Shown here: positions 3,001 to 62,000 of the stretch, in pieces
Position numbering within the stretch: position 1 is the stretch's first letter
Layout: each line of letters begins with the position of its first letter
Assembly (NCBI GenBank): GCA_948144175.1
Contig: CANXME010002133.1
Location: 136,501-200,500, forward strand
DNA length: 64,000 nucleotides
Reading direction: 5' to 3'
DNA from: Closterium sp. NIES-65
Lineage: Eukaryota > Streptophyta > Zygnematophyceae > Desmidiales > Closteriaceae
Program-made: the position numbers and the translations under genes
Notes under the pieces: generated by a model
Databases searched by the model: none
What the model saw: only the letters and a program-made list of their open reading frames with translations
Told to the model about the DNA's origin: nothing

Positions 3001-6000
3001 CTAGCAGCGCTCTACTCCTGCTCCCAGGTGAGCTTGTAGGTGGGGGGAGGCGGGTTGTGCGTGTGTGTGGGGTTTGTTGTACTGTCTTGAACTCACAGAA
3101 GTACTGAAGTGGATGAAAGTCGAGTCTAAGATCGCATGCAGCATGGTGGTGCTGGTGGTGCTGGTGGTGGTGCGATGCGATGCATGGGGCTAGCAGCGCT
3201 CTACTCCTGCTCCCAGGTAAGTGCTTCTGTGTGTGCGGGGGGAAAAGATCTCCCATGTGATCACCCAGGTGTTATCCCAGGTACGCTTTCGTTCACCTGT
3301 GCCGTTCATTGATGAAGGTGTACGCTGATTCTACGCACTCTCCCATTCCTGTTTCCCTCCACTTCCCTCAGGTCGATTCAATCAAGTGCTGGTCCGTCAA
3401 CCCTCCACCAACCTTCTACACCTCCCTCTGCTCCGCCTTCTCCTCCTCCCTCTCCTCCGCCCTTCCCTCCTCTCCTCCCTCCTCTCCCCCCTCGGACTTC
3501 CTTCCCCTGCGGCCGCTTCCCCTTCCCCGCCTCTCCTCAGCGCTCCCTCTCACCCTGTCAGAGGGATCCGATGATCCCACCACACAGGTGAGACGTGTAG
3601 CAGGCTGCTGTGCCTTGCTTCATTGCTTGGAGGAGCGCTCTACAGCCATTGCTTGCCATAGCCACCACCGCCATGCCTCTCTCTCATCCCGTGCCCCCTC
3701 CCGGTCGCACCAAGCCCACTCAGTGCACCGCCTTCCCTCGGCCGTGCATGCTCTCACACCATGCCATGCCCTCTCCAAGTCCCCCCTCATCCCGTCCCTC
3801 CCAATCCTTCCACACTCCCACCAACCCTTCCTCCCAAGCCTCGTGCGCTGAACCCTAGGCTGCCCTGCCACGGCCTTGCCTGCTCTCACACCATCCCATT
3901 GTGCCTTGGTAACGAGGTGACTTTTGAGTCGACTCAAAAGTCACCTCCTCCCAAGCCTCGCGCGCTGAACCCTAGACTGCCACGGCCTTGCCTGCTCTCG
4001 CACCACACCATCCCATCATGCCTTGACATGCTATCGTCATGCCCTCCCCCCATCCTCTCCCTTCCATCCCAGGCCTCGCGCACTGACCCCTCTGACTTTG
4101 TCTGCTGCCACGGCCTTGCCTGCTCTCACGCCATGCCGTGACGTCGTTGTGCCATGCCATCGTGCCCCAGCCCACCACCTCCTCCCATCTCATCTCTCGC
4201 GCACACCACCCCCTCCCTTTCATCTCCTCCCAGGCCTCGCGCACTGACCCCTCTGACTTTGTTGGCTGCCACGGCCTTGCCTGCTCGCCCAATCGCCTCG
4301 TCATTGCAACGGTCAGTCCCCCTCACCAGTCAGTCACCTCAACCTCACGGGTGCAGAGACGGCTTTTGAGGCACCTCAAAAGTCAGTCCCCCCCACCAGA
4401 CGACTAACTCAACCTCGTTTTGCGTCTCAGATACTCTCAGCACCCCTCTTAACCCCCTTCACCTTGTTCTGCACGTTTCTCGGTTTCCCGGCATCCCGGT
4501 ATCCCGGTTTCAAGGCTTCCCAATTTCCCAGTTTCCCAGTTTCCCTGTATCCCGGTTTCGGTTTCCCCGTTTGGCTGTTTCCCAGCATCCCGATTTCCCG
4601 GTTTTCCGGTTTCCACGGATCCCAATATCCCGGTTTCCCAGTATCCCCGTATCCCGGTTTCCCGATTTCCCGGTTTCACGGTTTCCCGGTTTCCCGGTAT
4701 CCCGGTATCCCGGTATCCCGGTATCCCGGTATCCCGGTATCCCGGTCTCCCGGTCTCCCGGTCTCCCGGTCTCCCGGTCTCCCGGTCTCCCGGTCTCCCG
4801 GTCTCCCGGTCTCCCGGTTTCCCGGTTTCCCGGTTTCCCGGTTTCCCGGTATCCCGGTTTCCCCGCATCCCGGTATCCCGGTATCCCGGTTTCCCGGTTT
4901 CCCGGCTTCACGGTTTCCCGAATTCCCGGCATTCCGGCATCCCGGTTTTATCCCGGTTTCCCGGAATCCCGGTTTCCCGGTGTCCCGGTTTCCCGGTGTC
5001 CCGGTTTCCCGGTTTCCCGGTTTCCCGGTATCCCGGTATCCCGGTTTCCTGGTTTCCCGGTTTCCCATTTCCCGGTTTCCCGGTTTCCCGGTTTCCCGGT
5101 ATCCCGGTGTTATCCCGGTTTCCCGGTTTCCCGGTTTCCTGGTATCCCGGTATCCCGGTATCCCGGTATCCCGGTATCCCGGTATCCCGGTTTCCCGGTT
5201 TCCCGCTTTCCCGCTTTCCCGGTATCCGGTATCCCGGTATCCCGGTTTCCCAGTTTCCTGGTATCCCGGTATCCCGGTCTCCCGGTCTCCCGGTCTCCCG
5301 GTCTCCCGGTTTCCCGGTTTCCCGGTTTCCTGGTTTCCCGGTATCCCGGTATCCCGGTATCCCGGTATCCCGGTATCCCGGTATCCAGGTTTCCCGGTTT
5401 CCCGGTATCCCGGTATCCCGGTATCCCGGTATCCCGGTATCCCGGTTTCCCGGTATCCCGGTATCCCGATATCCCGGTATCCCGGTATCCCGGTATCCCG
5501 GTTTCCCGGTGTCCGGGTTTCCCGGTTTCCCTATTTCCCGGTTTCCCGGTATCCCCGTTTCCTGGTATCCCGGTATCCTGGTATCCCAGTATCCCGGTAT
5601 CCCGGTTTCCCGGTTTCCCGGTTTCCCGGTATCCCGGTATCCCGGTTTCCCGGTTTCCCGGTTTCCCATTTCCCGGTTTCCCGGTTTCCCGGTTTCCCGG
5701 TTTCCCGGTATCCCGGTATCCCGGTTTCCCGGTTCCCGGTATCCCGGTATCCCGGTATCCCGGTTTCCCGGTATCCCGGTTTCCCGGTTTCCCGGTTTCC
5801 CGGTTTCCCGTTTTCCCGGTATCCCGGTCTCCCGGTCTCCCGGTCTCCCGGTTTCTCAGTTTCCCGGTTTCCCGGTTTCCCGGTATCCCGGTTTCCCCGC
5901 ATCCCGGTTTCCCGGTTTCCCGGTTTACCGGTATCCCGGTTTCCCGGCATTCCCGGTTTCCCGGTCTCCCGGTCTCCCGGTTTCCCAGTTTCCCGGTTTC

Positions 6001-9000
6001 CCGGTTTCCTGGTATCCCGGTTTCCCCGCATCCCGGTTTCCCGGTTTACCGGTATCCCGGTTTCCCGGCATTCCCGGTTTCCCGGTTTCACGGTTTCCCG
6101 GTTTCCTGGTATCCCGGTTTCCCGGCATCCCGGCATCCTGGTTTTATCCCGGATTCCCGGTATCCCGGTTTCCCGGTGTCCCAGTTTCCCGGTTTCCCGG
6201 TATCCCGGTATCCCGGTTTCCCGCTTTCCCGATTTCCCGGTATCCCGGTATCCCGGTATCCCGGTATCCCGGTTTCCCGGTTTCTCGGTTTCCCGCATTC
6301 CCGGTATCCAGTATCCCGGTATCCCGGTTTCCCGGTTTCCTGGTATCCCGGTATCCCGGTCTCCCGGTCTCCCGGTCTCCCGGTTTCCCGGTTTCCCGGT
6401 TTCCCGGTTTCCCGGTATCCCGGTATCCCGGTTTCCCGGTTTCCCGGTTTCACGGTTTCCCGGTTTCCTGGTTTCCCGGAGTCCCGGTTTCCCGGCATTC
6501 CGGCATCCCGGTTTTATCCCGGTTTCCCGGTATCCCGGTTTCCCGGTGTCTCGGTGTCCCGGTTTCCCGGTTTCCTAGTTTTCCGGTTTCTTGGTATCCC
6601 GGTATCCCGGTTTCCCGGTTTCCCAATTTCCCGGTTTCCCGGTTTCTCGGTTTCCCGGTTTCCCGGTATCCCGGTATCCCGGTATCCCGGTTTCCCGGTT
6701 TCCCGGTTTCCCGGTTTCCCGGTATCCCGGTATCGGGGTATCCCGGTTTCCCGGTTTCCCGGTATCCCGGTATCCCCGTATCCCGGTTTCCCGGTTTCCC
6801 GGTATCCCAGTTTCCAGGTTTCCCGGTTTCCCTATTTCCTGGTTTCCCGGTTTCCCGGTATCCTGGTATCCCGGTATCCCGGTATCCCCGTATCCCGGTT
6901 TCCCGGTTTCCCGGTATCCCAGTTTCCAGGTTTCCCGGTTTCCCTATTTCCCGGTTTCCCGGTATCCCGGTTTCCCGGTATCCCGGTATCCCGGTATCCC
7001 GGTATCCCGGTTTCCTTGTTTCCTGGTTTCCCAGTATCCCCGTTTCCCGGTATCCCGGTATCCCGGTATCCCCGTATCCCGGTATCCCGGTATCCCCGTA
7101 TCCCGGTATCCCGGTATCCTGGTTTCCCGGTTTCCCGGTTTCCCGGTATCCCGGTATCCCGGTCTCCTGGTCTCCCGGTCTCCCGGTCTCCCGGTTTCCC
7201 GGTTTCCCGGTTTCCCGGTTTCCCGGTTTCCCGGTATCCCGGTTTCCCCGCATCCCGGTTTCCCAGTTTCCCGGTTTCCCGGTATCCCGGTATCCCGGTT
7301 TCCCGGTTTCCCGGTTTCCCGGTATCATGGTATCCCGGTTTCCCGGCATTCCGGTATCCCGGTTTCCGGGTTTCCCGGTTTCCCGGTATCGCGGTATCCC
7401 GGTTTCCCGGTATCCCGGTACCCCGGTATCCCGGTATCCCGGTTTCCCGGTTTCCTGGTATCCTGGTCTCCCGGTTTCCCGGTATCCCGGTTTCCCGGTA
7501 TCCCGGTTTCCCGGTTTCCCGGTTTCCTGGTATCCGGGTTTCACGGTTTCCCGGTTTCCCGGTATCCCGGTATCCCAGTATCCCGTTTTCCCGGTATCCC
7601 GGTTTCCCGGGCCTCCTGGTTTCCCGGTTTCCCGGTTTCCCGGTTTCCCGGTATCCCGGTATCCCAGTATCCCGTTTTCCCGGTATCCCGGTATCCCGGT
7701 ATCCCGGTATCCCGATATCCCGGTATCCCGGTATCCCGGTATCCCGGTTTCCCGGTGTCCGGGTCTCCCGGTTTCCCTATTTCCCGGTTTCCCGGTATCC
7801 CCGTTTCCCGGTATCCCGGTATCCTGGTATCCCAGTATCCCGGTATCCCGGTTTCCCGGTTTCCCGGTTTCCCGGTATCCCGGTATCCCGGTTTCCTGGT
7901 TTCCCGGTTTCCCATTTCCCGGTTTCCCGGTTTCCCGGTTTCCTGGTTTCCCGGTATCCCGGTATCCCGGTTTCCCGGTTCCCGGTCTCCCGGTATCCCG
8001 GTATCCCGGTATCCCGGTTTCCCGGTATCCCGGTTTCCCGGTTTCCCGGTTTCCCGGTATCCCGGTATCCCGGTTTCCCGGTTTCCCGGTTTCCCGGTAT
8101 CCCGGTATCCCGGTTTCCTGGTTTCCCGGTTTCCCATTTCCCGGTTTCCCGGTTTCCCGGTTTCCTGGTTTCCCGGTATCCCGGTATCCCGGTTTCCCGG
8201 TTCCCGGTATCCCGGTATCCCGGTATCCCGGTATCCCGGTTTCCCGGTATCCCGGTTTCCCGGTTTCCCGGTTTCCCGGTATCCCGGTATCCCGGTTTCC
8301 CGGTTTCCCGGTATCCCGGTATCCCTGTATCCCGGTATCCCTGTATCCCGGTATCCCGGTTTCACGGTTTCCCGGTTTCCCGGTATCCCGGTATCCCAGT
8401 ATCCCAGTATCCCGGTTTCCCGGTTTCCCGGTTTCCCGGTATCCCGGTATCCCGGTTTCCCGGTTTCCTGGTATCCCGGTATCCTTGTATCCCGGTATCC
8501 CGCTTTCCCGGTTTCCCGGTTTCCCGGTATCCCGGTATCGGGGTATCCCGGTTTCCCGGTATCCCGGTATCCCGGTAGTATCCCGGTATCCCGGTTTCCC
8601 GGTTTCCCGGTATCCCGGTATCCCGGTTTCCCGGTTTCACGGTTTCCCGGTTTCCTGGTTTCCCGGTATCCCGGTTTCCCGGCATTCCGGCATCCCGGTG
8701 TTATCCCGGTTTCCCGATATCCCGGTGTCCCGGTGTCCTGGTATAAAAAGCGCTAGAATGCTTCTCGTAGTAGTTTGCTTCGCTCTCACTGTAGCTCGCT
8801 GCAGCAAGTATAAAAAGCGCTAGAACGCTTCTCGTAGTAGTTTGCTTCGCTCTCACTCGAGCTCGCTGCAGTAAGTATAAAAAGCGCTAGAACGCTTCTC
8901 GTAGTAGTTCGCTAAGCTGCTCGCTCAAGTAAAGCTGCTAAGCTCACTACTCTACGCTAACGGTGCGGAAACAGCAGCCTTGCACCTTCTTCTATACTCC

Positions 9001-12000
9001 TATCTCGAGCCGCGACCTGCTAGCAATCCGCGACACCCTTGACACGACAAGCTGTTAGAATCTAGAATCGAGGATCTACCGTGACGGTCCTGACGCACGT
9101 TGTTACGAAGCCCCTGCTTATCCGGCAGACTATTAGCGCGCGGTGCGGTGTGAAGTCTTCCTTTGCAACGGCGTGGTTTGAGCTCTGCATTGAGCAGCTC
9201 AGGACAGCACGGCCTTACATCAGTTTCTACCTTCCGCTGCACGAACATCAGATTTGCACCGCCCTTCCCTCAAACTGCTTTTTCGCCACCCCACAAACTC
9301 AACTTCCCGCCACTTCGCTAAGCCCACATTCGCGCGTGCGACAGCTACTCCCAAGCCAATTTACGTGCCCTTCCTCGCTACACCAACTTTTTACCTGAAC
9401 CAAAGACTACACTTTTCACCACCTTTCATATGCCTCCTTTACATCCAAAATCATTCCGCATGCCACCAGCCCATTTCCTTACAAAATGACAGGCTGCAAA
9501 AGGGGTCGTGGTGCCCAAGACTCTGAACCCACTTCTCCTCGCCCGCCTGCCCGTTCGCGCCAAACTCCAGCCTTTGCGACCCTTTCAGCAGCCTTATCGA
9601 TCCCCGCACCACCCTCTACCTCTCAGCCTCGCCCTACTTCTGCTCCTTCCCAGCAACCTCAGCCAACGTCAACGCCTAAATTTGTCTCAAAAAAACAGAA
9701 AGACGTCCTTCAGCAGGTCCTTAAGGAAACTCTTCCTACGCCATCGTCTTCATCACGACCACAAACCTTTCATCCTCCGCCCTCTACTTCTCGAGACCAA
9801 CCTTCTCCTGCGTCAAACCCTCCAGGTGCCACAGCAGTTGTTCCTGATCCCACGGTCGATACTGACGACGCGCACCCACTATCTCACTATGAAACAGATG
9901 CCCCGCCTCCCCAGCAACATCCTCCTCCACCCCCCCACGACCCTCACTCTACGCAACCAGACCCTCTTCGTCCTCTGCCCTCGCCAACCCCCAACAACTC
10001 ACCACCCCCTTCTGTTCCACCTCCACCGTCTCCGCAGCCAGCACCAAACCCCCCGGCACCCACTTCACACCCTCCTCCTGTTCCTTCTCCACCTCCTCCT
10101 GCAGGCCCTTCTCCCGCCGCCCCTTCTTTCAACTGTCCCTTTTGCAACCGCCCGTGCGCCAACGCTGGCACCCTTTCGCGCCATGTATCTGCGTGTTCGC
10201 GTCACTCCAGTGCTCGCCAGCAGGCTGCTCGCCCTCCACCACCCCGCCCCCCACCCTCTGCACCTCCAGCATTGTCCCCACCCGCCATCCCGGAGCAGAC
10301 TTGGGAGGTGGTTCTCACCTGGGATTGGTCAGGTTTCTTCAGCCCCACTGTCTTGCCGGGGCCTTTGATTCGACGCATTCCTTCTCGCATCCGCCTCCTC
10401 ATGCTCAACGCCCTCCTCATTCCTCTCCACCGCCTCGCCGCTTGCCCGGGTGACACAGCTGCCCACCTCATCATCCTTGCCTTTCCTCGCCTAGTACTTC
10501 GTTCTCCGCCTTCTTCTTCCGCCGTGTCAACTACATCCGCTTGCGTTGCGCTCCTTCGTCGCTTCCTCCAAGGCGATTGGCTCTCCCTCTTCCAAGAGGC
10601 ATTCGCTGCAGCTGTCCCAGCCACCCGCCCTTCCACTCTCACCTCAGCACGGTCCACAGCCTCGCAGGCGCGGATTAATCGGGCCAAACGTTTCGCTCGG
10701 TGTGGCGACTTCTCACGATCCCTTGCAGCACTAGAAGCAGGCGAGCTGGCACCACCATCTTCAGACACGGTCACTGCGCTTCATGCAAAGCACCCTCCAG
10801 CTGCTGCCGAGATCCCTGACTGGGTGGCCTCTTTCACTGCTACAGAGCTACCTCAGCTTACAGTCCCCTTACTGCACCAGGCCCTTCGTTCTGCCCCACG
10901 CGGCACAGCTGCTGGCCCCTCAGGGTGGCTCATCGAGCATCTGCGAGACACGTTCCTCTCTTCGCAGAACCACCTCCCATATCTCCTCCGCCTCTTCCAG
11001 TCCTGGTTACAGGGAGACCTCCCCCCGGCCGTTCGGTCTTACTACGCAGCTTCTAATCTCGTCGCCCTATGTAAGCCCCAAGGCGGGGTCCGGCCAATTG
11101 CCATTGGAGAAGTTCTCCCTCGCTTGCTGTCCCGCTGCGTTACTCTCATTTACAAACAACAAATCCGAGAATTCTTCCTTCCCTCCCTTCAATTCGGCGT
11201 CGCTGTTCCTGCGGGTATCGAGGCCATGGCACATGCGGTCCAGGCCGCCTTATCCCTTCACCCGGATTGGGTGGTTCTTGAGCTCGATGTCGCAAATGCC
11301 TTCAACTCCTTTAACCGCAACTTCATGTTCGACGCCCTCCGCCAGTCCCCCTTCTCCTCCCTTATCCCCTTCTTCCGCCTCTTCTACGCTGCTCCCTCTC
11401 CTCTCCACTACCGCAACGGCCCCATCCTTGAGACCCTCCAATCAGCTTCCGGTGTGCGGCAGGGGGACCCTTGTGGACCTTTCCTCTATGCCCTTACCCA
11501 GCAGCTCGCCATCCACCCTACACAGCAACTCCACCCCTCGACTTTTATCACTTCATATGCCGACGACACCTACATAGTTGGCCCAGCCCCGGACGTTTTT
11601 GCCGCTTACAATACCCTCACTTCCCGCCTGCAGCCTCTTGGCCTCACCGTCCAGCCTTCCAAGTGCTCGCTTTATGGCCCTTCTGACATTCCTCCAGACG
11701 CTATGCCTCCACCAAACCTTGGCATCGCTCCTAATGGCCTCACTGTGGCCGGAGTACCTATTGGATCTGACTCATACATCATCTCCTCAGTCGGCCACAA
11801 ACTCCGCTCTTTTGCTACGTCTCTTTCTCTTCTCCACGACCTGCACGACCCTCAGATAGCATCTCGCCTTCTAACCCTCTGTGTCTCAGCACGCCCCTCC
11901 TTCCTCCTCCGCACGGTCCCTCCTTTCCCTGAAATTACAGAGTTGTACACCGACTGGGATAACGACTTACTCAACCACTTCACCCGCCTCGTTGGCTCTG

Positions 12001-15000
12001 AATTTTGGCCACCTGACTTTGACCATCTTCCTACCGCACACCACCAGCCATTCCTTCCCATCCGCATAGGTGGCTTTGGCCTCCGCTCTTCCGCTGGGTT
12101 TGCTGATCTCGGTTTCCTCTACAGCTGGGCCCAATCTGTCCCTCTCCTGTCCTCCCACTTCTTCGTCGGCGGTGCTCCCATCTTTCGCCCCTTCATTTCC
12201 AGTGACACCATTGACCGTCTCGACCCTTGCATTGTTTCAGCCATGTCACGCCTTCCCCCAGACATTCTTCACCTTTTCCCCTCCTGGCCTGCCCTCATTT
12301 CGGGATATCCCCACAAACTTTACTCCTACCTTTCCCAACTCAAGGAAGCTGCCATGCTCGAACGGGTGCGCTCCACAGTGACTTCTCCCCTTCATCTGGC
12401 CCGTATAACCTCCTTGCAAGGGCCCCATGCAGGGGATTGGCTTTCTGTGGCCCCATCCTCTCAGCATCTCCAGCTTTCCCCGACAGAATGGAAAATTGCA
12501 GCTGCAATCCGCCTCGGCCTTCCCATCCCACACCTCACCACCTCCCGTGCTTGCGTATGCGGTTTCTCTTACACAGACCCATCCATTGTCTCCCACGTCC
12601 TTCGCTGCCCTACCGGAAACGAGCCCACCAGGGTCCATGACGCCGTCAAACATGAGGTTCACCGGATTGTCAAGGAGCTGTGTCTTCCTTCCCAGCTAGA
12701 GGACAATCACCTCCTTCCTGGTCGCCGTCCCGACATCAGCTGCAGAGACACGAGTTCAGGAGCTGACTTGGGCCTTGGATGTCACAGTGGCAGATCCACA
12801 GCACGGTTTCCCTCACTCCAACGCCGCTACTGTCATTGGTTCTGCTGCTGCTGCTCGTGAGGCGGAGAAACGCTCTCTCTATGCTACATCACTTCGCGAT
12901 CTCCCCCACGTCATATTCTTTCCTCTTGCAATTGAAACATTCGGCTGCTTCGGCAAGTCATTCCTGCACTTTCTCCAAGATTGCAGCCGTCGTGGTGCAG
13001 CCCGCATTCGTGACTACAGTGGCACGACGGACCTGGTGCCTCACCTCCTAGAAACCAACTACTTCAAGCGCCTTTCCTTCGTCCTTCAGCGTGAGCAGGC
13101 TCGGTCCGTGTGCCGTCGTTCCCAGATACGCCTCTCGGTCACCTCGGATCAGTTGGCTTCCGAGACAACTTTGCCCTCGGTTGCAGACTTTGCCCACCTT
13201 GGTCCGGACGGTTGAAAACCTTAGGCCTTTCCAATAGGTAGGTGTTTGCTTAGTTGAATACATTACATGATCCATGTACTGCTTGTACATATACTATACT
13301 GTAAATAAAGTGGTTTCCCGGTTTCCTAGTTTTCCGGTTTCCCGGTATCCCGGTATCCCGGTTTCCCGGTTTCCCAATTTCCCGGTTTCCCGGTTTCTCG
13401 GTTTCCCGGTTTCCCGGTATCCCGGTATTCCGGTATCCCGGTTTCCCGCTTTCCCGGTTTCCCGGTTTCCCGGTATCCCAGTATCGGGGTATCCCGGTTT
13501 CCCGGTTTCCCGGTATCCCGGTATCCCCGTATCCCGGTTTCCCGGTTTCCCGGTATCCCAGTTTCCGGGTTTCCCGGTTTCCCTATTTCCTGGTTTCCCG
13601 GTTTCCCGGTATCCTGGTATCCCGGTATCCCGGTATCCCGGTTTCCTTATTTCCTGGTTTCCCGGTATCCCGGTATCCCGGTATCCCGGTTTCCCGGTAT
13701 CCCGGTATCCTGGTATCCCGGTATCCCGGTATCCCGGTTTCCTTATTTCCTGGTTTCCCGGTATCCCGGTATCCCGGTATCCCGGTATCCCCGTATCCCG
13801 GTATCCCGGTATCCCGGTATCCCAGTATCCCGGTATCCTGGTTTCCCGGTTTCCCGGTTTCCCGGTATCCCGGTATCCCGGTTTCCCGGTTTCCCGGTTT
13901 CCCGGTTTCCCGGTTTCCCGGTATCCCAGTATCCCGGTTTCCCGGTTTCCCGGTATCCCGGTATCCCTGTATCCCGGTATCCCGGTTTCCCGGTTTCCCG
14001 GTTTCCCGGTATCCCTGTATCCCTGTATCCCGGTATCCCGGTTCCCCGGTTTCCCGGTTTCCCGGTATCCCGGTATCCCGGTTTCCCGGTTTCCCGGTAT
14101 CTCTGTTCACCCTTCACTCCCCTATCACCCCGAACCCTTGAAGCGTTTCCCTGTGTCCTTAAAGGTGATCTCCTTTCCTCCTTTCTGCCTGCCCTGCTGC
14201 CTCCCCTTCTGTCTGCTGTGCTGCCTCCCCTTGCTGCCTCCTTGCTGTCTACTGTGTTTCCCTGCTGCCTGCCCTGCTGCCCCCCTTTTCTTACTGTTGC
14301 CCTGCTGTGCCTTCCCTTCTGCCAAATCCCCGCTAATTCAGGTTCGGGACATGGCTCAGCATTTGAAGAATGACATGTACACCAAGTGAGTACCTCTGGT
14401 TGCTCTAAGTGCTTTCCAACCTTAAGATTTTCTGCTCTTCCGCTATTAGTGAGGACCCTCAGCATCTGAAGAATGACATGTAACACCAGGTGGTTGCCTC
14501 TTTGCTCTTGCCATAACGTCCCTTGTTCCATCCGAACTTCTTGGTCTTACCATCCGAACTGCTGGACTTACCCTCTTGTTCTGCCTCTTCCTCTTGTCCC
14601 TTTTTCTCTGCAGGTCGTTCAGGGCAGCAGTGCAGCTATTCTGGATAGCAGCAGCAATCCCACTGGCGCCTAATAAAAATGGCCAACAGGAGAGTCTTTT
14701 CTTCCTGACCCGCACTTCTTTCTGCTCTCTCCTTCTGCTCCCTTTTTCTCTGCAGGTCGTTCAGGGCAGCAGTGCAGCTATTCTGGATAGCAGGGCAACG
14801 ACTCAACCCCTCTTCCACCCCTCTTCCTCCTCCTCTTCCTCCTGCTGCTGCTGCTGCTACTGCCGCCTCTGCTGCTACCCCTTCCCCGATTCCCACCATC
14901 ATCCCTCCCAACCCTCCATCCGACCCCCTCGTCTCCCACCTGTTGCACTGCTGGGCCGTGCCGAGGAGGGGCAAGGGGGCGACAGCAAGGAGAGCGCGGG

Positions 15001-29187: not shown

Positions 29188-29209
29188 CAGACAGGGCAGT
29201 GCAGGGAGG

Positions 29210-42704: not shown

Positions 42705-44525
42705 TTCACAAACTCGTTGATTTTGTAATTCTGGTTGTGTTGTTCTTTCTGCAAACGAAGCTGCTGACGGCGCGTATCGTTTGGGAGAGGTTGGTTGAGG
42801 ACCGTGGGTTTCGAAGCAGTACAGTTTGGGCCAGGGCAGGCTTAGAACTTTCTAGGAGGTGGTAGACGTGGCGCTTCTCTAAATATGAAGTTACGAGTTT
42901 TTGCGTGAGTTCTGCGTAAGGTGCGGGATGGCGGAGGGATAGTTCGGAAAATCCTGCGTGGCGCGGAAATTTTAGCTTTTCTCCGCATTCCATTTTGCTG
43001 CTCCGAACCTGACTTGGGCAGCTGAAAATACGAAGGTGATCTTGAAGGTATTTAGCTAGCCAATAGGAATGAAGGGTGTTTCCACGGCAGCACCGAATGT
43101 TTCTGTCACCCTCACGCAAGCACCAAGGGGTTGAATCCCCGACCTCATAATTTCTCACCTGCCATTCCTAATTCCTCTCTTTCAGCATTATGCAGTTCTA
43201 ATACAGTAGTTACTCTCCCCTTGGATCGAGTCAGCGAGGATTAGTTCTCCTGTCACCGTTCATCTCGCTACCGTCGCTTACTGATCTTTGGAGGCAAAAG
43301 CGGTAGTTCGTTTTTCCATGGAGTCCCTGATCTTGTTTCCGTAACTAGTTGGATCTCAGTACCTTTAAGTCTTAATCGCGCTTCGGTCCTACTTCAGCGT
43401 TCGCCGCTTCACACATCTAGTGCGGTTACTATAGCTAACTCTTTGAAACTAGTTGCTCTCCCTCCAGATTCGCGCCATTAGCGGTAGTTGTGTACTGGTA
43501 AAATCTGCGGGTAATGAGACGACTTTTGAGGCGCCTCAAAAGCCATTAGCGGCAGTTGGTGTACTGGTAAGATCTGACGTTTTTTTAGCTCGAGTATCTC
43601 AACGTTCATTTGCGTTGCGAATTTTAGCGCCGATTTGCGGACACATTCGTGACGATTATTTTATTGAGACTTTTTTTGGGTCGAAAAACAAAACTGCTGA
43701 CAAATTCGCTACTTTTATCATTGGGGACTTATCCTGCAAACGCATGATACAAACGCAAGCCACATTAGCCTGGCGGATGCGCAAGAAAGTGGGAAAGGGG
43801 AGGTCGGCAGGGAAAAGAGGGGTAAGGGAGCGAATGGGAAAGGAGTGGATCAGTGAAAGTCGTTATTTGAAGCGCGTTAAGGGACGCCACAAGGGAGAGT
43901 CCTCTTTCTCATTTTTTAACCTATTTCCCTCCCCTCTCTTCCCCTGGTCTTGCCTAGTAACGTCATGCATCTCTCATCCCCCACGCTCTCTTCATCTCCC
44001 CCGCTCTCCCCCACGCCTCCCCGCTTTCCCCTCAGTAGCCTGCGTGCGCCGCTTATCCCCCCGTGCTCCTTCTCTTCTCCCCTCCCTCTGCACCCACTTC
44101 TCATCTTCGCTCTGCTCACCCCTCGTTCCCCTTCCTCTCCCCTTTCCCCCCTATTCCGCTCCCCTTCCACCGCCCCCTCATCATCCCCCATTTCCCTCAC
44201 CTCCTTTGCCCCTTCATGTCCGTCCTAACCATCCCCCATCCCCCCTCCCTCCCCTCCGCCTTCCCCCATTCACCCCTCATCTGCCCCCACCCATTCACTC
44301 CTCGTGCACATCCCCCATCCATCCCTCTTACCAGGCAACCAAACCCCCCCTTTCCACCCCGCTCCCCCCTCCCCTCACTCCACGCTCTCCTATTCCCCCC
44401 TCCCCTCTCCCCCCCCCATCTCTCATTCCACCTCCACTCGCCCCTCATTTCCTTGCAGCTTCCCTTCAATTCCCTCCACGCCCCTCTCCCGCTCAATCCC
44501 CCATCTTCCCCTCTGCCCGCCCCTA
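42705..44525 (-). repeat. Right arm of the large inverted repeat
   Basis: Counterpart of 19100-20890 in opposite orientation. It carries one extra 67-bp duplication with palindrome (43474-43610) that the left arm lacks. The outer part (44000-44520) is a pyrimidine-rich tract on the plus strand. Long open frames there (Pro/Ser-rich) reflect composition, not coding. Confidence 0.8.
43523..43542. repeat. Perfect 20-bp palindrome in the right inverted-repeat arm, GCGC core
   Basis: CTTTTGAGGCGCCTCAAAAG between two copies of GCCATTAGCGG...GTACTGGTAA (43474, 43542). Absent from the left arm. Confidence 0.93.
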
Positions 44526-48060: not shown

Positions 48061-50187
48061 TACCTCGTATCACGTATCATCAGAAACAATTGTACAACGG
48101 CCGGAATTCAAAGCCCCGCCGGGAAAAGCGGGATGTGACTGACGACAGTGTGAGATTGTTACCCGTGTATAGAGTCGTGCTTCGGTATCATGAACACCAG
48201 CCGATTTCCTCTGTGTTGATGGATTTACAAGTTCGAGTTCTCTGAACAGAAGAAACATCACCTCAAGAATCAACCCGTGTAATGCTTAGTCTTCCGGGAG
48301 TGTATATCAGCAACAAGCAATGGCTAGGAGGCTACTGATCCAGTAACAATATTAGTATGGCCCTTGAGCATGTCAATTACTGTAACATCTCCATTCTCTA
48401 ATGCCGGCACATACTGAAGTAGATGTGGCACCTACCAGTACTCTACAATGCTATTTTACAGCGAGTTAATTACCTGCCACCACTAGTTTCCAAATCCTCA
48501 TGCCATACCTAGTAACCTGCCGATATGCCCTAATGCTGTACGATTGTGTCATCCATATGCATGTTCTTCACCTCCACACAAGTTTGCCCTGCCCACTTGC
48601 TTACAGATGCTAAGATTATAGCGAGAGCAAGGCTCAGCCAGAGCTGAATCTCACTTCTCCAAAGCTTCATTTTATAAAAGCTTCACTTAAAAAAAAAAAC
48701 CTAACACCTTGAGAGCTTCACTTCTTGAGACTTGCATACATGGCATCAATTTGCGCCTGATGGGGGGGAGAGACGGGATAAGGGAGAAGCAAGGTGGGCA
48801 GGCGAATGCACGTGTGGTATGAAATGGCAAATAAGGTGGGCGTTAATTTGTGCCCAATAACAGGCAGAAGCAAGCGGAGGGGAGAAAGAGAAAAAACAGG
48901 AAAACCGCCTGGATGCTTTTGACCACTTTTGAGGCGCCTCAAAAACCGCCTGGATGCTTTTGCTTGCAAAAGTTGAAGGCCTTAGTATTACATCAGCCGG
49001 GGGGCAAAGGCAAGGGGTTTCGGGTATCAGTGCGGTCAAATGACAAGCTCCCGGCTTGAGCCAGCCTTTTTGAAAGATAGCAGAAGCTGGGTGGTTACAA
49101 ACGAGTACACCCAACGACTTCAACCAGTGCAGGCTCCTTCGCGTGAAGTTTATTTGACTTGCAGTGCCAACTCCGCCTGTGCACATCTGTTTTTAAGGAG
49201 CTTAAAAAAAGGCAAACCAAGAGCATTGTTTGAGGCGTCTCAAACCGGCGGTCCAATATGTTCTTTTCGAGGCGACTTTGAACAAGATATTCAAAAACTT
49301 TTCTTCAGAGGCTAAAAACGTGTAGCCAAGTGTGCATCCCAACAGTGCATTATTTCCACAAAACATGGTGCAATGAGTACAAATGAATTACAAATCCACA
49401 CAAAGGGCATGATCAAACGGCATCGGAACTTGCGCACATCCTCCTAAGATGGAAAAATCAAATTGCGCATCGTTAATCATCTGTGCACAATCGCAGGCTG
49501 CTGCCAACACAAACGTGAAACCAGCAACCCAAAATTGTGCATAGTTGATGAGTGCATGCGCAATTGGAAATTCCTGTCCTAGGAGGATGTGTCCAAACCC
49601 TTATGCCATTCCGATATTCACATTTGAGAGAATTACTTACTCTTGAGGCACTTCGAACAGGGACCCAAAAACCCAATTTAGGGCGTATCTTTGGCTCGGG
49701 TCATGGCACTGTTCATCCTACTGTTTGGGTCATGCGGAAATCGCTCACGACCCAAAGTGGCCTTCTGAAGCGCGGATAAGGTGGCGTTTTGTGCTGTTTG
49801 GGTCATGCGGAAAACACGCATGACCGAAAGTGGCCTTTTGACCCAAACCAAAGATACGCCCTTACTTTACCATAAAAACATTGTGCCAAACGTGCCTCCC
49901 AACCCAAGAGAGCAAATCCTTGCTAAAAACGAGAACAGGCCTTATGATGCTATAAGGATTTTTTTGAGAAATCTAAAACAAAAACTCACAACAAGAACAG
50001 GCCTTATGATGCTATAACCAGCCTGGTGGTGATTGAGCAGTTGCAGGCGCTTCTTCTTGAACGTGGGCGCCAGCAAACTCTTCCAAGTCGAACGGCTTGA
50101 CAACACAACACACCCACCGCAACACTAAACAAGTCTGCCTGCACGTAAATACCAGAGTCTAGTCACCCACCTGAGCCCTGAACCCAC
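48061..50187. other. Intergenic region between KXDL-like and acyl-CoA synthetase genes
   Basis: No supported gene. It holds palindromes at 48927-48944 and 49228-49245, and a TTTTTAAG...CTTAAAAA foldback at 49191. A duplication of GAACAGGCCTTATGATGC (49932 and 50000) surrounds a degenerate palindrome. 50020-50110 is a decayed copy of the last mapped synthetase exon. The real 3' end of that gene probably lies here (a frame from acceptor ACGTGCAG near 50145 runs to about 50000). Confidence 0.5.
48927..48944. repeat. Perfect 18-bp palindrome, GCGC core
   Basis: TTTTGAGGCGCCTCAAAA between two copies of AAAACCGCCTGGATGCTTTT (48901, 48942). Confidence 0.93.
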
Positions 50188-53100: not shown

Positions 53101-56100
53101 CACTCTAGTCACTCCATCCAACCCAAACCCCCTTTTTTTCGCATAGGATCACACTCACCATACCCCTGCACCACGGGGCAGACTCACCGCACCCCTCTCA
53201 ATCGCACTGTACCGCTCTCAAACTCACCATACCCCTGCACCACGGGGCAGCACATGGCAATCTTCAAAAACTCCTCCACGTGAGGGGCGAGAGGGGCAGC
53301 ACCGGAGCAGATAATCCGCACGTTGCCACCCAGCCGTGCCTTGATCTGTGGCAGGAGTGAGGTGGAGGAAAGACGTGGGGTGGGGGATTGAATGTGGGCA
53401 TGGTGTGTCGGATCTTCACCCCTGCTGCTCTGCTGCCAGCTGTGTGCGTTCAAGGCACCTCTAGAGACTCACACGCTCACCTCTCCTCACCCACCCACAG
53501 CCACACAAACTCACCCTGTTAAATACAAACAAGTCAAGAATGGGCCTGGCGTGTCGGATCTTCACCCCTGCCGCTGCCACCGGTGCGTGTTCATTGATCA
53601 AGGCACCTCTTCCGAACGCACACGCAGACCTCTCCTCTCGCACCCACCCACAGCCACCCACTCACCTTGCTGAAGACGAGGAAGTCAAAATGGGAGTGGC
53701 GTCTCGGATCTTCACTCCTGCTGCCACCCACCCACCCACCCACCCACAGCCACCCACTCACCTTGCTGAAGACGAGGAAGTCAAAGATTGGCGTGGCGTC
53801 TCGAATCTTCACCCCTGCCGCCAGGCGCGCTTGCTTGGTGCTGTAGGCATAGTCGAACAGCATCTTGGTGAGCCCGCCCGTGGACTCAATCTTAGATATG
53901 ACGGCTGAGATGAAGGGAAGGGAATAGAGAGGCACAGGGAATGGGGAAATGAGGTAGGTGCACAGGATCCTGCCAGGCTCCCTTGCTTCCGTGCTTGCTT
54001 GGTGCTGTAGGCATAGTCGAACAGCATCTTGGTGAGCCCGCCTGTTGATTCAATCTTAGAGATGACGGCTGGGATGAAGGGAAGGGAATAGAGAGGCACA
54101 GGGAATGGGGAAATGAGGTAGGTGCACAGGATCCTCGCTTGGTATGACTTTTGAGAATTCTCAGAAGTCATACCGAAGGTTAGTCCCTGGCTTGCTGGCT
54201 TGCTTGTGGGAAATGCGACGGCAGGGGCGTTTGCGGATAAGCACAGCACACTGAGTCAATCAGGCCCCTACCCGAGTGGATGCGGTCAAAGATGCGCGGC
54301 ACTCCGCAGAAGAAGGTGGGCTTGAGGGCCTCCAAGTCATTTGTGAGGTTCCTCACGTCCTGATGGGGTTGGAAAGAAGGGTGTAGAAGTGCAGGGGAGC
54401 GAAGGGGAAAGGACAGGGGAGGGAGCGCAGGGTGTGTGAGGAGAGTTGGGCTGAAGGGCCTGGAGGTTGGATGTGGGCAGCTTCCTTGATGGGGTGCGGG
54501 AGAAGGGGGGGGAAGGGCGGAGTTCAAGGGGCAATGGAGGGGTAGGGGAAGGAAGGGAAGGGGACGGTGTGTGAGGCGAGGTGGGCTTGAGGGCCTCCAG
54601 GTCGTCTTTGAGCCGCCTCACGTCCTGGTGGGATAAGGGGGTTGGCGGGCATACAAGGGCAGTGGAGGGGAGGAGAGAAGGGAAGCGAAAAGGAAGAGGG
54701 CGAGTGTGTGCGGCGGGGCTGGCTTGAGCGCCATGAGCTCCTCTGCCACGAATATGTGTGCCATAGACCCTACCACATCTCACCCCTCACCAAACCTCAC
54801 CACCGCGTCTCACCCCCCACCACCGCATCCCACCGCATCTCACCCCTCACCACCGCGTCGCACCCCTTGCCAGAAGCCAATGGAGCCGCTCAAGTGCGTC
54901 ATAAGCTCCTCCGCGATGCGGTAATTGATATGCGCCAGGGGCAGATAGGAGACGTGCTGTGCACATCCGCGTCCCACCTCTCAACACGGTGTCAAACCCA
55001 TCACCACCACATCTACCCCCCACCTCCGCATTCCATCCCTCACCACCGCATCCCATCCATCACGACCGCATCTCACTCACCCCTTGCCAGAAGCCAATGG
55101 AGCCCCCCACATGGGTCATAAGCTCCTCGGCCACGTGGTCAAAGATGTGTGCCAGGGGCAGGTAGGAAATGTAGATGTCCGATTCGGTGAGCTGTGAGGG
55201 TGGAGGGGTGTGGGGGATACAGAGGACATCAAAGGGAGGCATCATGAGCTGCTCTGCCACGCGGGCAAAGATATGTGCCAGGGGCAGGTAGGATATGTAG
55301 ATGTCCGCTGGGGTGAGCTGTGATGGGGGTGGGCAAGGAGGGATACACAGCGCATATCAAGGGGAGAAGCTCATCTCGTCTCCTCCGCGGTCGAATAAGT
55401 GCGGAAGAGGGAGAGAGGCGCAACAGATGTCGATGTCTGCTGGGGTGAGCTGTGAAAGGGGGAGGGAGAGAGAGTGGGGAGCGGAGCGGAGGGCAACAAC
55501 AGGAATTGGTGGTTGAAGATGCGAGCAGCTGTTGTGTTGTGGCCACAGCAGCAACAGTGCTGGTTTTTGAGAATTCTCAATAACCACTCCCTACTGCCCA
55601 CTCACCACGCAGTTGGTAACCTCGCAGAAGCACTTGGGTGCCGGCAACGGCAGTGGCTAGAGAGTCCCACCACTGACGCAGCATCCAGGCCTATGCATCC
55701 CCTTCTCTCCCCCACCCCCCTGCTTCCCCTCCACGCACCACACAGGTGTTGACCTCGCAGAAGCGCTTGGTGCCCGCAACTGTAGAGGCAGGGAGCACCC
55801 TACACTACACTGATGGGACATCCAATCCAAGCCCCTGCCTCCCCTTCTCCTCCTCTCCCACCACCCCCTCCTCGCCCCTTGCCCACTCCCACGCACCACG
55901 CAGTTGTTGACCTCGCAGAAGTGCTTGGTGCCTGCTTGCCACGGCAGTGGCGAGAGCACCCTAACCTACACTGATGGAACATCCAAGGCTCTCTCTTACT
56001 TCCACCCTCTCCTCGCACAAGCGCTTGGTGCCCGCAACAGCAGTGGCGAGAGTCCCACCACTGACGCAGCATCCAGGCCTATGCATCCCCCTCCCCCCAC

Positions 56101-58957
56101 CCCCCCTCCCACTCACCACACAGGTGTTGACCTCGCAGAAGCGCTTGGTGCCCGCAACAGCAGTGGCGAGAGCACCCTACACTACACTGATGGGACATCC
56201 AATCCAAGCCCCTGCCTCCCCTTCTCCTCCTCTTCCACCACCCCCGCCTTCCCCCTTTACTCCCACTCACCACACAGTTGTTGACCTCGCAGAAGCACCT
56301 GTTAAGGCGCCTTAAAAGCTTGCCACCCACCCAACCCCATCCCCATTCACCACACAGGTGTTGACCTTGCAGAAGCGCTTGGTGCCCGCCACGGCAGTGG
56401 CGAGACTCCCTATTCCCTAAACCTTAAACCTAAACCTCCCACCACCCCCCTTACTCCCACGCACCACGCAGTTGTTGACCTCGCAGAAGCGCTTGGTGCC
56501 CGTCCGCCACAGCAGAGGCGAGAGCACCCTACCCTAAACCTTAAAATCGAAACCCAAAACACAGCATCCAAGCCCCTGCCTCCCCTTCTCCTCTCCCACC
56601 ACCCCCGCCTTCCCCCTTTACTCCCACTCACCACACAGTTGTTAACCTCGCAGAAGCGCTTGGTGCCCGCAACAGCAGTGGCGAGAGCACCCTACACTAC
56701 ACTGATGGGACATCCAATCCAAGCCCCTGCCTCCCCTTCTCCTCCTCTTCCACCACCCCCGCCTTCCCCCTTTACTCCCACTCACCACACAGTTGTTGAC
56801 CTCGCAGAAGCACCTGTTAAGGCGCCTTAAAAGCTTGCCACCCACCCAACCCCATCCCCATTCACCACACCGGTGTTGACCTTGCAGAAGCGCTTGGTGC
56901 CCGCCACGGCAGTGGCGAGACTCCCTATTCCCTAAACCTTAAACCTAAACCTCCCACCACCCCCCTTACTCCCACGCACCACGCAGTTATTGACCTCGCA
57001 GAAGCGCTTGGTGCCCGTCCGCCACAGCAGAGGCGAGAGCACCCTACCCTAAACCTTAAAATCGAAACCCAAAACACAGCATCCAAGCCCCTGCCTCCCC
57101 TTCTCCTCTCCCACCACCCCCGCCTTCCCCCTTTACTCCCACTCACCACACAGTTGTTAACCTCGCAGAAGCGCTTGGTGCCCGCCACGGCAGTGGCGAG
57201 GGCATGATTCGTTATCATCACGCCCTTGGGCTCTCCCGTGGTGCCTGTCGGTCGGTTGAGGGGTGACAGGAAAACAGGGGGGGCGGTTAAATCGTTGTGT
57301 GCACCTGATGTGTGTGTACCTGATGGTGCACAGATTCCTCAAGTAAGACCTGTGAAACCACCTGGATTCAGCTGAGCTGCTGAGGAGTACCTGAAGAAGC
57401 ACCTGAACCCACCTGAGGAAGCACCTGAACCCACCTGAGGAAGCACCTGTCCCACCTGAGGAAACACCTGAGCCCACCTGAGGTGTACATGATGGTGCAG
57501 ATGTCCTCTGGCTTGGAGGGGCATGGCTCCACTGGCTTCGCCTCGCCCTGATGAGTGGGAAGTGGGGGGGTGGGAGAGAAGGAGAAGGGGGGACGACGGA
57601 GTGGGAATGGAGGAATGGGATGAGGGAAGGACCTAACATGGCTCAACTGGCTTTGCCTCGCCCTGGTGAGTGGGAAGTGTGGGGATGGGGTGGGAGAGAA
57701 GGAGAAGGGGGGACGGAGAGGGAAGGGAGGAATGGGACGAGGGAAGGACCTAACGTGGCTCCACTGGCTGTGCCTCGACCTGGTGAGATGGGTCGAGGAA
57801 ATGGGATGGGCAGGGGACAGGGTGGGATATGGGACGAGTGGGGATGCGTGAGTGGGGACACGTGGGACCAGAATTGACCAGCATTGACCAGCAGTAACTG
57901 GCAATAGCATTGAATCACCTTTCCCAGCATTGATCGACACTGACTCCCATCCCATGTCTGCCCGCCCATGCCTGCCTGCCAACCGCCCTTCTGATTTATC
58001 AGGCGCCTAGCTGATTCGCTGCCATTGACCAGCGTTGACCAGCGTTGACCAGCGTTGACTCACCTCTTTCAGAAAGTCGTCCCAGCTGACTCCCTTCACG
58101 CCCATGTCTGTCAGTGCCTTGGCGGACTCCGCATCCAGGTCGCCCATGCTCACCACGGCTGGTGGGGGGGAGGCGGGAAAACACCAGGAGTGGGAGGGGA
58201 AAAGAAGGGAGACGGAGTCATGAGTCCCAGTCCCAGGTGACTCCCCGAATGCCCATGTCTGTCTGCCAGTGCCTTGGCTGAATCCGCATCCAGGTCTCCC
58301 ATGCTCACCACCGCTGGTGAGGGGGGAACGGGGAAAGAGGGAACAGGGGATGGTGCGGTGCCTTAGATTCAACCCAGGGGAAGCTGGCGTGTTGAGCCAC
58401 ATGCCAGCTGGCGTGTTGAGACACATGCCAGCTGGCGTGTTGAGACACATGCCAGCTGGCGTGTTGAGACACCACCCAGCTGGCGTGTTGAGACACCACC
58501 CAGCTGACTCCTCGGATGACCATGTCTGTCAGCGCCTTGGCTGAATCCGCATCCAGGTCTCCCATGCTCACCACCGCTGGGGAGGAGAGGGGGAGGATTA
58601 TATGAATGGAGGGGGGGGAAGAAGAGAGAACCGGAGGGTGAGAGAGAAGGGAATGGGGAGACGGAGGGGAGGGAGAAGGGGAGGTGAGGGGGGAGGGAGA
58701 AAGGAGGAAACTCGGCAGGCGGGTTGACAAAAACGAATGTGGCAACATTTGAGTCGACTCAAAAGTCAACTCGGCAGGCGGGTTGACAAAAACGAATGTG
58801 GCAACATTCCCGTGGCGACATTCTCCTGGATGGAAGGTGGGATGGGAGAGAGGTTCGGAGGGAGATTATAGATGCTAGGAAAGTGCCAAGTGTGCGATAG
58901 GCGGGTGTGTGAGAAGCTGGTAGATCAGAGCTTCATCTATGAAGGATGCAATTCTCT

Positions 58958-59041
<84 letters not shown>

Positions 59042-62000
59042 GGAAAAATTCGCAAACAAAAAAATCTATGGAAGGGACTGCCCCAAGCCTCCAAGCCCAC
59101 GCCCCAGGCGACTTACTCTTGACATTCTCAGTGCAGTTGGGCAGGCTCTTGAGCAGCTGCACATGCATGAGGGGCGAGGGGAGTGCATGCGAGGGAGAGG
59201 AAAGAGAAAGGGGTGCGCAGGATGAGAACAAGGCGTGTGCAGTTAGGCAGACTCTTGAGCAGCTGAAGAGATTCGAGAACGAGGTGAGACGCGAGGGGTG
59301 ATGGGAGAGGGGCGAGGGGCGAAGGGAGTGCATGCAAGGAACCCGAAACCCTAAGGACAGAAGGGCATGTTAAAACGAGATTGTGAGGGTCAATGTGCAG
59401 GCAGCATGCTGTGAGATCCAGAAATTCAAAGCCGAAAGTCAAGGCTTTCGTGGATCCAGAAAGTCAATGACTCACAGCAGGTATCTTGGCTGCTTGCACG
59501 ACCTGGCTTTTGAGAATTCTCAAGAACCAGCCTGTGAGATCCAGAAAGTCTATGACTCACAGCAGGTATCTTGGTTGCTTGCACGACCTGGTTTTTGAGA
59601 ATTCTCAAGAACCAGCCAGTGAGATCCAGTCCAGAAAGTCAATGACTCACGGCAGGTATCTTGGCTGCTTGCACGACCTGGTTTTTTAGAATTCTCAAGA
59701 ACCAGCCTGTGAGATCCAGAAAGTCTATGACTCACAGCAGGTATCTTGGCTGGCTGCTTGCACGACCTGGTTTTTGAGAATTCTCAAGAACCAGCCTGTG
59801 AGATCCAGAAAGTCTGTGACTCACAGCAGGTATCTTGGCTGCTTGCACGACCTGGCTTTTGAGAATTCTCAAGAACCAGCCTGTGAGATCCAGAAAGTCT
59901 ATGACTCACAGCAGGTATCTTGGTTGCTTGCACGACCTGGTTTTTGAGAATTCTCAAGAACCAGCCAGTGAGATCCAGTCCAGAAAGTCAATGACTCACA
60001 GCAGGTATCTTGGCTGCTTGCACGACCTGGTTTTTTAGAATTCTCAAGAACCAGCCTGTGAGATCCAGAAATTCTATGACTCACAGCAGGTATCTGGCTG
60101 CTTGCACGACCTGGTTTTTGAGAATTCTCAAGAACCAGCCTGTGAGATCCAGAAAGTCTGTGACTCACAGCAGGTATCTTGGCTGCTTGCACGACCTGGC
60201 TTTTGAGAATTCTCAAGAACCAGCCTGTGAGATCCAGAAAGTCTATGACTCACAGCAGGTATCTTGGCTGCTTGCACGACCACGAGAGCCACTTCCGCAT
60301 GGTTGAGAATGAATGACACTGCCTCCGCACCTACATGGAGGGAAGAGAGGGGAGAGGAGAGAGGGAGAGCAGAGACAGAGAGCTGTGTGATACGCAGCAG
60401 GGGGGGGAGGAAGGAGGAGGAGGGCTGCTTTCACGACCACAAGCGAGCGCCACTTCGGCATGGTTGAGAATGAATGACTGACACTGCCTCCACGCCTGCA
60501 AAGGGGAGGGGCGGGGTGGAGGGGGGGAGTGAGGGTCTATTGGACAATGGACGCAGGTTAGAAAGAGACGGGGGCTGAGATCGTCAAACTTTGTAAGAGC
60601 TATCTGGGATTTTCACAAAGTAGAGCAAACTATAAGACATGCACGGCACAATGCATCGACGAACAATACCATGCAGCAACTTACATCGAGAATCTAAAAA
60701 ATCTAACCTCACTCTACACAGCAACTCACTCAGTAAAAACGTTACTTTTCATGCTATTTGTATGCTATCTATCGACCCCCACTCATCCAGTGCACTGTAT
60801 GCAACGTTTCACTTCACCCATACTCGCTATAGACTCACCCAGTGTATCGTACAGTGGCACACACTGCATCGACTGACAGTTGCATGCCTGGAGGAACAGA
60901 ACAGGGGGTCAGCGTGCAGAGGAAACACACGAAGGTGTTTTTAGTCAACTCAAAACAAAGAGTGGCACACACTGTATGGGCTGACAGTTGCACGCCTGGC
61001 GGAACAGATGGGAGTTAAGCGTGCATTGAAAACACAAGAAGCGTTCTTTGATGTGAGATGACTCATGATCGGCCAGCATGCTGAGAGAGTGCACTGATTG
61101 TGTGCATCGTACAGTGGCACACACTGCATGGACTGACAATTGCACGCCTGGAAGAACCAAAAGGGGTTTCAGCGTGCAGAGGAGAGGAAACACACCAAGT
61201 GATCTTTGAGTCGGTTCAGCATGGAGAGGAAACACACCAAGTGACCTTTGAGTCGGTTCAGCATGGAGAGGAAACACACTTGCGTTGCAAAGACGCGCAG
61301 AGGAAACGCAATGACGCAAAGCAAAGCAAACGCACGCAGGATAACCGAGACGCGTCACAACACTTGAGAGTGCAGCAGAGGTAAGGCACGCAGCAGTGAG
61401 TTTTGTTTCCTTGGCGTTCCTACGCATGCAGTGCGTGCATACCTAGGTGACTTTTGAGTCGACTCAAAAGTCGCCTCCTATGCATGCATACCTCTCATTG
61501 GAAAGAGCGTCCCTCCCACCAGAGTGAGCACGTACCTCCATCCATGGCCTGGCCACGAACCACTGGGGCGAGTTGATGCTGTAGATGGGACGGAGTGACA
61601 GCGAGCAGTGGGGCAGTGTGTGACATCGAGTAGAGCACACCTCCCAGAGCACACTCACTCCCCCCTCTCTCACAGTGCCCACCTTCCATAGCGCGTACGT
61701 ACCTCCATGGACCATGGCCATGAACCACTCGGGCGAGTTGATGCCGTAGAGTAGAGCGCACCTGCCAATGCGCACTCATACACCCCCCCCACCATGACAA
61801 CCTCTCATCAGAGAAAGCGTACCTCCATGGCCATGAACCACTCGGGCGAGTTGATACCGTAGATGCCCACCTTGGCGTTCTGATGAAGGGGAGATGGTGG
61901 TGAGAGGTGTTGGGAAAGGTGAGAACGGGTTGGGAGAGGTGGAAAGGAGTTGGGAGAGGTGGGAAGGCAATGGGTAACAGGAATGAACCACTCGGGCGAG

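Follow-up and report, generated by a model that had tools for sequence, protein, structure and literature searches.

We analyzed a stretch of 64,000 nucleotides from Closterium sp. NIES-65 (contig CANXME010002133.1; the whole stretch is called the window below), in which short palindromes of one sequence family recur, in most cases between two copies of the same flanking sequence. The window is taken to be nuclear DNA of this charophyte alga, since a copia polyprotein is encoded in it along with another reverse-transcriptase gene, and since a protein related to one of its open frames sits on a 2.36-Mb contig. For this frame, at 14709-16757, three relatives were found, two from Closterium sp. 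Naga37s-1 and one from Closterium sp. NIES-53 (P0001-P0003), and a Pfam scan of these proteins found no family above the cut-off. The copia polyprotein at 23200-29532 has 4907 relatives, and all 120 among the matches listed are from Closterium. Besides the copia frames, the window contains a second type of reverse transcriptase (Pfam RVT_1, gene 9399-12857) and an AMP-binding-like stretch that scores slightly below the Pfam cut-off. Because the match lists of both frames include proteins from at least six Closterium strains, the presence or absence of the palindromes can be scored between strains.

A palindrome family bracketed by duplicated flanks

Exact palindromes of 14-34 bp were enumerated across the window, and the majority turned out to belong to one family, TTTTGAG-NNNN-CTCAAAA and its variants. 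When up to three mismatches are allowed, the pattern TTTTGAGNNNNCTCAAAA has 36 matches in the window as against 2.0 expected (100 shuffles, maximum 6). TTTTGAG motifs on both strands are accompanied by a partner arm in 29 of 35 cases, and in 27 of those 29 the arm lies exactly four bases away. The core is self-complementary in six of the seven matches without any mismatch. The main core types are three, namely GTCGAC, GGCGCC (at 56300 also as AAGGCGCCTT) and GAATTC, and the GC content of family matches ranges from 0.24 to 0.53. A covariance model made from 14 loci finds the known sites again together with a few weak ones. All sites named in a preliminary description of this DNA are present in the sequence, as seen in both the exact palindrome listing and the pattern scan; this includes nine sites at 59503-60223, which, however, form one array and not separate sites.

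To score the flanks, a duplication was defined as a direct repeat starting and ending within 40 bp of the palindrome centre. By this measure, a duplicated flank is found at 12 of 17 loci (3922, 4364, 15350, 16322, 43524, 45733, 48927, 49962, 56300, 58747, 59508 and 60938), compared with 155 of 2000 random window positions outside arrays (binomial P 2e-10). The preliminary description had reported flanking duplications at the palindromes and had proposed self-alignment of the flanks against other positions; this comparison, run within the window, confirms the excess. It persists when the array locus is left out, arrays being excluded from the random set (11/16 loci, P 2e-9), and when the three weak family matches (49962, 49228 and 46037) are omitted (11/14). 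Random positions under other settings gave 76/1121 outside large arrays and 302/1500 with arrays included. Other palindromes of at least 10 bp show a flank duplication in 7 of 27 cases, three of the seven within one 24-bp array (Fisher P 0.004 versus the family). If this array is counted once and the array locus is omitted, the family stands at 11/16 and the other palindromes at 5/25 (P 0.002).

Pattern matches in viral and prokaryote collections are taken to be chance and hence usable as a further control. This set comprises eight loci from viral contigs (two of three pattern scans) and 44 prokaryote loci, 51 of the 52 being scorable. None of the 51 has a flank duplication and three have a self-complementary core, in a set in which four matches share one sequence and for which the prokaryote scan and one viral scan required GTC or GAC beside one arm. 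The viral contigs were also scanned for Closterium copia DNA, with zero relatives.

At the measured loci, the flank copies are 18-82 bp long, where 20-115 bp had been given before, and the inserts between them span 21-38 bp. The copies had also been placed immediately beside the palindrome; they do bracket it at the 12 loci, but a copy can end up to about 20 bases before the core. Flank identity ranges from perfect (38/38 at 58747, 24/24 at 49962, 18/18 at 48927) to strongly diverged (68/83 columns at 60938, 71/85 at 3922, and likewise 61452).

For example, at 3922 a 34-bp perfect palindrome (3914-3947) goes with an insert at 3909-3945 between flank copies 3829-3908 and 3946-4025, which differ by 4 substitutions and 10 gap columns. 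The 35-bp insert at 4364 (4347-4381) has a long left arm, CGGGTGCAGAGACGGC, and lies between copies 4312-4346 and 4382-4416 with 30/36 columns identical. Similarly, the 34-bp insert at 43524 (43508-43541) combines a long left arm with a GGCGCC core and is enclosed by copies 43474-43507 and 43542-43576 (32/35 columns). At 45733, copies 45703-45730 and 45757-45784 (24/28 identical) surround the insert 45731-45756, and a weak extra match stands upstream at 45671-45704. Perfect copies enclose a 23-bp insert with a GGCGCC core at 48927 (48904-48962, insert 48922-48944), a 21-bp insert with a GTCGAC core at 58747 (58709-58805) and a 38-bp insert with a degenerate core at 49962 (49932-50017); the last is a weak match (15.9 bits, E 0.14) and was absent from the preliminary description. 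A 26-bp decayed palindrome is found at 60938 between copies 60853-60934 and 60961-61041. Locus 61452 (palindrome 61449-61472, insert 61445-61475, copies 61418-61444 and 61476-61493) falls below the threshold, yet its 18-bp flank copy is identical save for a 9-base gap.

Two loci are part of larger repeats. The TTAAGGCGCCTTAA palindromes at 56302-56315 and 56817-56830 (within 56262-56840) represent a single locus copied by a larger local duplication, and its flank repeats overlap a local tandem repeat. At 59453-60281, nine palindrome units with a GAATTC core alternate with flank copies of about 51 bp, giving an array with a period of about 85-90 bp. Besides that, additional weak family-like matches (45671, 46029 and 46198) are clustered at 45671-46232, one of them with a one-base insertion at its centre. 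A 42-bp tandem repeat at 61181-61279, whose unit includes GTGACCTTTGAGTCGGTTCAG, is possibly a decayed palindrome copy with its flank.

Exon loci and anatomy of the insert

Two insertions are located within the conserved open frame 14709-16757, on the plus strand. At 15350 (15307-15471), the palindrome 15348-15369 separates flank copies with a shift of 75 bp, and the right copy has extra 24-bp repeats. At 16229/16322 (16160-16408), two 30-bp palindromes (16223-16252 and 16316-16345) alternate with three 63-bp flank copies (62/63 and 59/63 identical) in a 93-bp unit. The window protein carries both the FESTQKS peptide and the duplicated flanks; P0001-P0003 all lack this peptide at both places. 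All three have a single flank copy (CHGEGRGNE-like) at 16229/16322. At 15350, a single flank copy (PSASTAAATTAAA) is present in P0001, P0002 and P0003 are gapped over the flank, and a clean empty site appears from the protein alignment in P0001 only. Being divisible by three, both shifts (75 and 93 bp) preserve the frame, and one open frame runs through all three palindromes; at the other measured loci, the shift is a multiple of three in 3 of 9 cases. In-frame inserts in an exon would be expected from insertion with subsequent purifying selection. The opposite route, in which other lineages precisely lost the insert via recombination between the flank copies, is less economical. The copies differ, decay and keep the frame in the exon, which makes a sequencing or assembly artefact unlikely.

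The best reading of the palindrome is that of an inverted dimer, in which one half-unit (about GNYGACTTTTGAGNN, sometimes longer) is joined head to head without a spacer. Since any sequence joined in this way is self-complementary at the joint, the varying self-complementary cores need no compensatory evolution. The arms and cores described earlier as compensatory are indeed self-complementary in spite of their differences, but head-to-head half-units explain this. The symmetric centre has a fixed position across the family. Arm length can differ within a site, with a longer left arm (CGGGT...GAGACGRC) at 43524 and 4364, and the left arm ends near a T run at 15350, 45733 and 58747. Folded as RNA, three symmetric copies pair along their full length bar a four-base turn, and their single-stranded forms are very stable (-16.7, -22.0 and -23.6 kcal/mol). 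At those GTCGAC-type loci whose boundary is clear (16322, 3922, 61452 and 45733), the insert ends with GTCAAC, GTCACC, GTCGCC or CGCGAC and the right flank copy starts with TC, which makes up 0.068 of dinucleotides; this junction was spotted post hoc, and 58747 and 15350, where the boundary slides or is blurred, are not counted. Selection for palindrome perfection was considered as well and is not needed (pooled over 10 loci, flank substitutions amount to 27/412 and arm mismatches to 9/90).

Origin of the palindromes and their duplications

A mobile palindrome fits these observations best, because one sequence family occurs at unrelated places, because the flanks range from identical to diverged, and because related proteins are without the palindrome at the exon sites. 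On balance, we consider it somewhat probable that the palindromes are a family of minute non-autonomous mobile insertions with target duplication by staggered nicks. The preliminary description had already suggested a minute palindrome that moves and leaves long target duplications; recurrence, flanks and empty exon sites agree best with this suggestion, while mobility itself, staggered nicking, fill-in and supply in trans are steps that we infer. In this model, the insert would be an inverted dimer of 21-38 bp, copied to new places by enzymes acting in trans. Integration would occur at two nicks on opposite strands, 18-82 bases apart, and fill-in of the overhangs would double the nicked stretch on both sides of the insert; it is the long and variable target duplications that point to breaks at this distance with both overhangs filled in. 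Later, the copies would decay, and units of flank and palindrome might at times grow into tandem arrays. We lean towards a target-primed insertion of the reverse-transcriptase type, a weak step of the model, since the target duplications are long and differ in length, and since GTCGAC-type copies often have one fixed end (GTCRNC, then the target TC) and one that varies, a feature that is ambiguous because the core is symmetric. The palindromes could represent a new class of nuclear mobile DNA, defined by an inverted dimer of about 30 bp without an interior, spread by way of widely staggered nicks, a target duplication of 18-82 bp, in-frame insertion into an exon and the seeding of tandem arrays, a claim we put forward tentatively and with less confidence than that of mobility.

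Several points weigh against mobile insertion. A flank duplication was not found at 4 of the 17 loci, namely a 34-bp palindrome with a GAATTC core at 54141-54174 (54149, no clean duplication), a further palindrome with this core at 55557-55590 (55565), the weakly matching GTTTGAGGCGTCTCAAAC palindrome at 49229-49244 (49228, extending over 49228-49245) and locus 46037. Other palindromes in the window are likewise above the random rate (7/27 versus 155/2000). A palindrome-blind scan kept 50 spaced direct repeats, of which 13 have a spacer with a hairpin score of at least 7, all of this family (7 independent loci); in the other 37 the spacer lacks a strong hairpin, which indicates that a general duplication process exists; spaced and tandem duplications lacking any palindrome are also common in the window. 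The palindromes therefore predict duplications, but duplications can occur without them. The empty sites rest on proteins from two strains, and the flank at 15350 is also missing in two of the three proteins. The palindrome peptide, searched with two patterns, occurs in none of 123 proteins with 249,431 residues (P0001-P0003 and the 120 listed of the 4907 copia matches), and a protein search with the translated palindrome gave no match at E 10 or better (104 candidates). Three asymmetric inserts fold poorly as RNA (z 0.01, -1.5 and -1.95), an argument against a stable RNA hairpin as the shape they share. The pairing statistics of the 14 aligned loci (paired cells 80.7% versus 71.0% shuffled and 33-48% slid; both partners changed in 10 of 17 pairs versus 6.8 in shuffles) are partly built in, as the loci were chosen for palindrome likeness and their orientation was chosen by hand, and the post hoc TC junction belongs on this side as well. 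Flank divergence and arm mismatches, expected to age together, show no significant correlation (Spearman coefficient 0.29, P 0.42, 10 loci; 0.66, P 0.055, without locus 49962). In addition, no enzyme in the window was linked to the palindrome, the reverse-transcriptase gene 9399-12857 being followed by a GGTTTCCC array and no palindrome. To our knowledge, transposons never make duplications of 18-82 bp, and we know of no precedent for the staggered-nick step in elements this small.

The alternative that survives best, although we regard it as rather unlikely, is that the palindromes were captured as filler. Here, two nearby nicks on opposite strands would leave long overhangs, filling these in would duplicate them, and end joining would trap an abundant short palindromic fragment that does nothing to promote itself; the earlier suggestion of a hairpin left by repair lives on in this form. 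Tandem duplication from nearby opposite-strand nicks is reported as an established repair outcome (PMC8355091, PMC7407515), and both the 37 spacers without a strong hairpin and the partly variable insert ends on both sides are in agreement with it. However, a single sequence family recurs across the loci, all 13 strongly palindromic spacers of the palindrome-blind scan are of this family, and four GTCGAC-type loci share the insert end point beside TC. We also know of no source of abundant palindromic fragments. The unusual point is that one small palindrome lies repeatedly between duplicate copies: it either takes part in its own insertion, which we prefer as the modestly likelier case, or it is a recurrent filler, to which we give a clearly smaller chance.

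Less probable still is a palindrome that came first. An existing palindrome could extrude as a hairpin or cruciform and stall replication or be cut, and repair would then duplicate its surroundings. Such a hairpin driving duplication, also suggested earlier, would be in line with the tie between palindromes and duplications far beyond chance (12/17 versus 155/2000), with the very stable single-stranded folds of the three symmetric copies and with the raised rate of the other palindromes, though three of their seven cases are one array. It is disfavoured by P0001-P0003, which are without both the palindrome and the second flank copy at the exon sites (at 15350, P0002 and P0003 are gapped over the flank), and by the one sequence common to unrelated places; moreover, duplication should copy the palindrome too and not leave one between two flanks. 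Finally, solo ends of a larger DNA transposon, whose terminal inverted repeats abut after loss of the interior, would explain why arms tend to agree within a site and vary between sites, as well as the longer arm form at 43524 and 4364, but this origin is very improbable, as DNA transposons make short fixed duplications, unlike those of 18-82 bp, and as no longer element with these ends was seen in the window, where all 11 exact GACTTTTGAG matches lie inside palindromes.

If mobile insertion is true, the palindromes would set a new lower size limit for a nuclear mobile element and be among the smallest known in a nuclear genome; the finding would be categorically new if staggered-nick insertion were confirmed. 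It would join mobile palindromes with short tandem duplications from nearby nicks, which are usually studied separately, and would offer a natural, datable series of staggered-break repairs. It would also show how new in-frame protein repeats are seeded, with the palindromes giving rise to new coding repeats and to local duplications in those algae that are nearest to land plants.

Known systems and neighbouring repeats

Miniature inverted-repeat transposable elements and other DNA transposons with terminal inverted repeats share such repeats with the family, but the Closterium palindrome is without an interior and shows no short target duplication of fixed length. Short and long interspersed elements (SINEs and LINEs) have target duplications of variable length, as do the palindromes, some copies of which may also have one fixed and one variable end; these retroposons are usually hundreds of bases long or more and carry a promoter or tail. 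As to the 3' end of a LINE partner, what comes after the window's sole non-copia reverse-transcriptase gene is the GGTTTCCC array and not the palindrome. Origin from a known small RNA found no support, as scans of the window gave neither a tRNA gene nor any Rfam family at gathering scores. In Rickettsia, palindromic elements insert in frame into genes.

Ultra-short palindromes at many sites are also known from the GC42 clusters of yeast mitochondria, 42-nt palindromic repeats described as behaving like mobile elements, with constrained pairing and an unproved amplification mechanism (PMC4478555). These are GC-rich and looped, and have short direct repeats (AG or ACT, 2-3 bp) on their flanks, whereas the Closterium palindromes are nuclear, have a GC content of 0.24-0.53, lack a central spacer and go with duplications of 18-82 bp. 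Similarly, the organelles of the alga Volvox carteri harbor selfish short palindromic repeats in both orientations, for which a reverse transcriptase was proposed as the driver (PMC2670323). They average 50 nt with loops of 3-5 nt, reside in intergenic DNA and introns, and their nuclear copies are called inert transfers; the term duplication is absent from the main text of this paper, which also cites an ultra-short invasive element of Podospora mitochondrial DNA. The Volvox repeats are thus organellar and looped, in contrast to the nuclear and spacerless family of Closterium. Mitochondrial palindromes of Lobosphaera (PMC4524435) and interrupted repeats of Arabidopsis (PMC10342631), as presented there, differ structurally from this family.

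Bacterial repetitive extragenic palindromic (REP) sequences with RAYT transposases come close in size, being palindromes of 20-40 bp presumed to be mobilised in trans (PMC3733652). They are prokaryotic, and one of their ends bears a GTAG or CGTC tag, which was not seen as the end of any measured Closterium insert; the terms target site and duplication are absent from the main text of that source. With regard to repair, the rice study of Vaughn and Bennetzen, as reviewed, found tandem duplications at breaks, also with inserted DNA, the source of the reviewed inserts being ectopic donors or sequence no more than 200 bp away from the break, and work on CST and Pol alpha-primase describes short tandem duplications from nearby opposite-strand nicks (PMC8355091, PMC7407515). 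A duplicated stretch around an insert is common to both, but in Closterium one palindrome family recurs in place of diverse or local filler. Altogether, the family misses a defining feature of mitochondrial GC clusters, of transposons with terminal inverted repeats and of REP sequences, and it fits retroposons and filler only in part. Among literature titles and abstract openings, which cover few subscription journals, no such element was described for Closterium or for nuclear DNA. A Closterium genome paper puts repeats at 47-64% and describes copy-number variation as widespread, and its main text is without the term palindrome (PMC10407611).

The window holds further repeats. The copia polyprotein frames at 23200-29532, which the Pfam scan covered, and at 30600-37220 are long, have the same orientation and both contain glycine-rich and proline/alanine-rich repeats. 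Large GTTTCCCG arrays at 4475-8742 and 13312-14101 lie on either side of the reverse-transcriptase gene 9399-12857, and the second begins straight after its 3' end. This junction (aataaagt-GGTTTCCC) points either to an element whose tail is made of GGTTTCCC repeats or to integration into an array of this kind. A 67-bp repeat in 2.6 head-to-tail copies with 95% matches (8741-8913) is situated between that gene and the first array. Recurring local duplications with periods of 96-164 bp, mostly without palindromes, are found at 53641-57792 and 61832-62186 and seem to carry exon and intron pieces of an acyl-CoA-synthetase-like gene. The spaced direct repeats at 37746-37781, 49721-49764 and 63772-63871 have spacers that are not palindromic and are candidates for ordinary filler-containing duplications.

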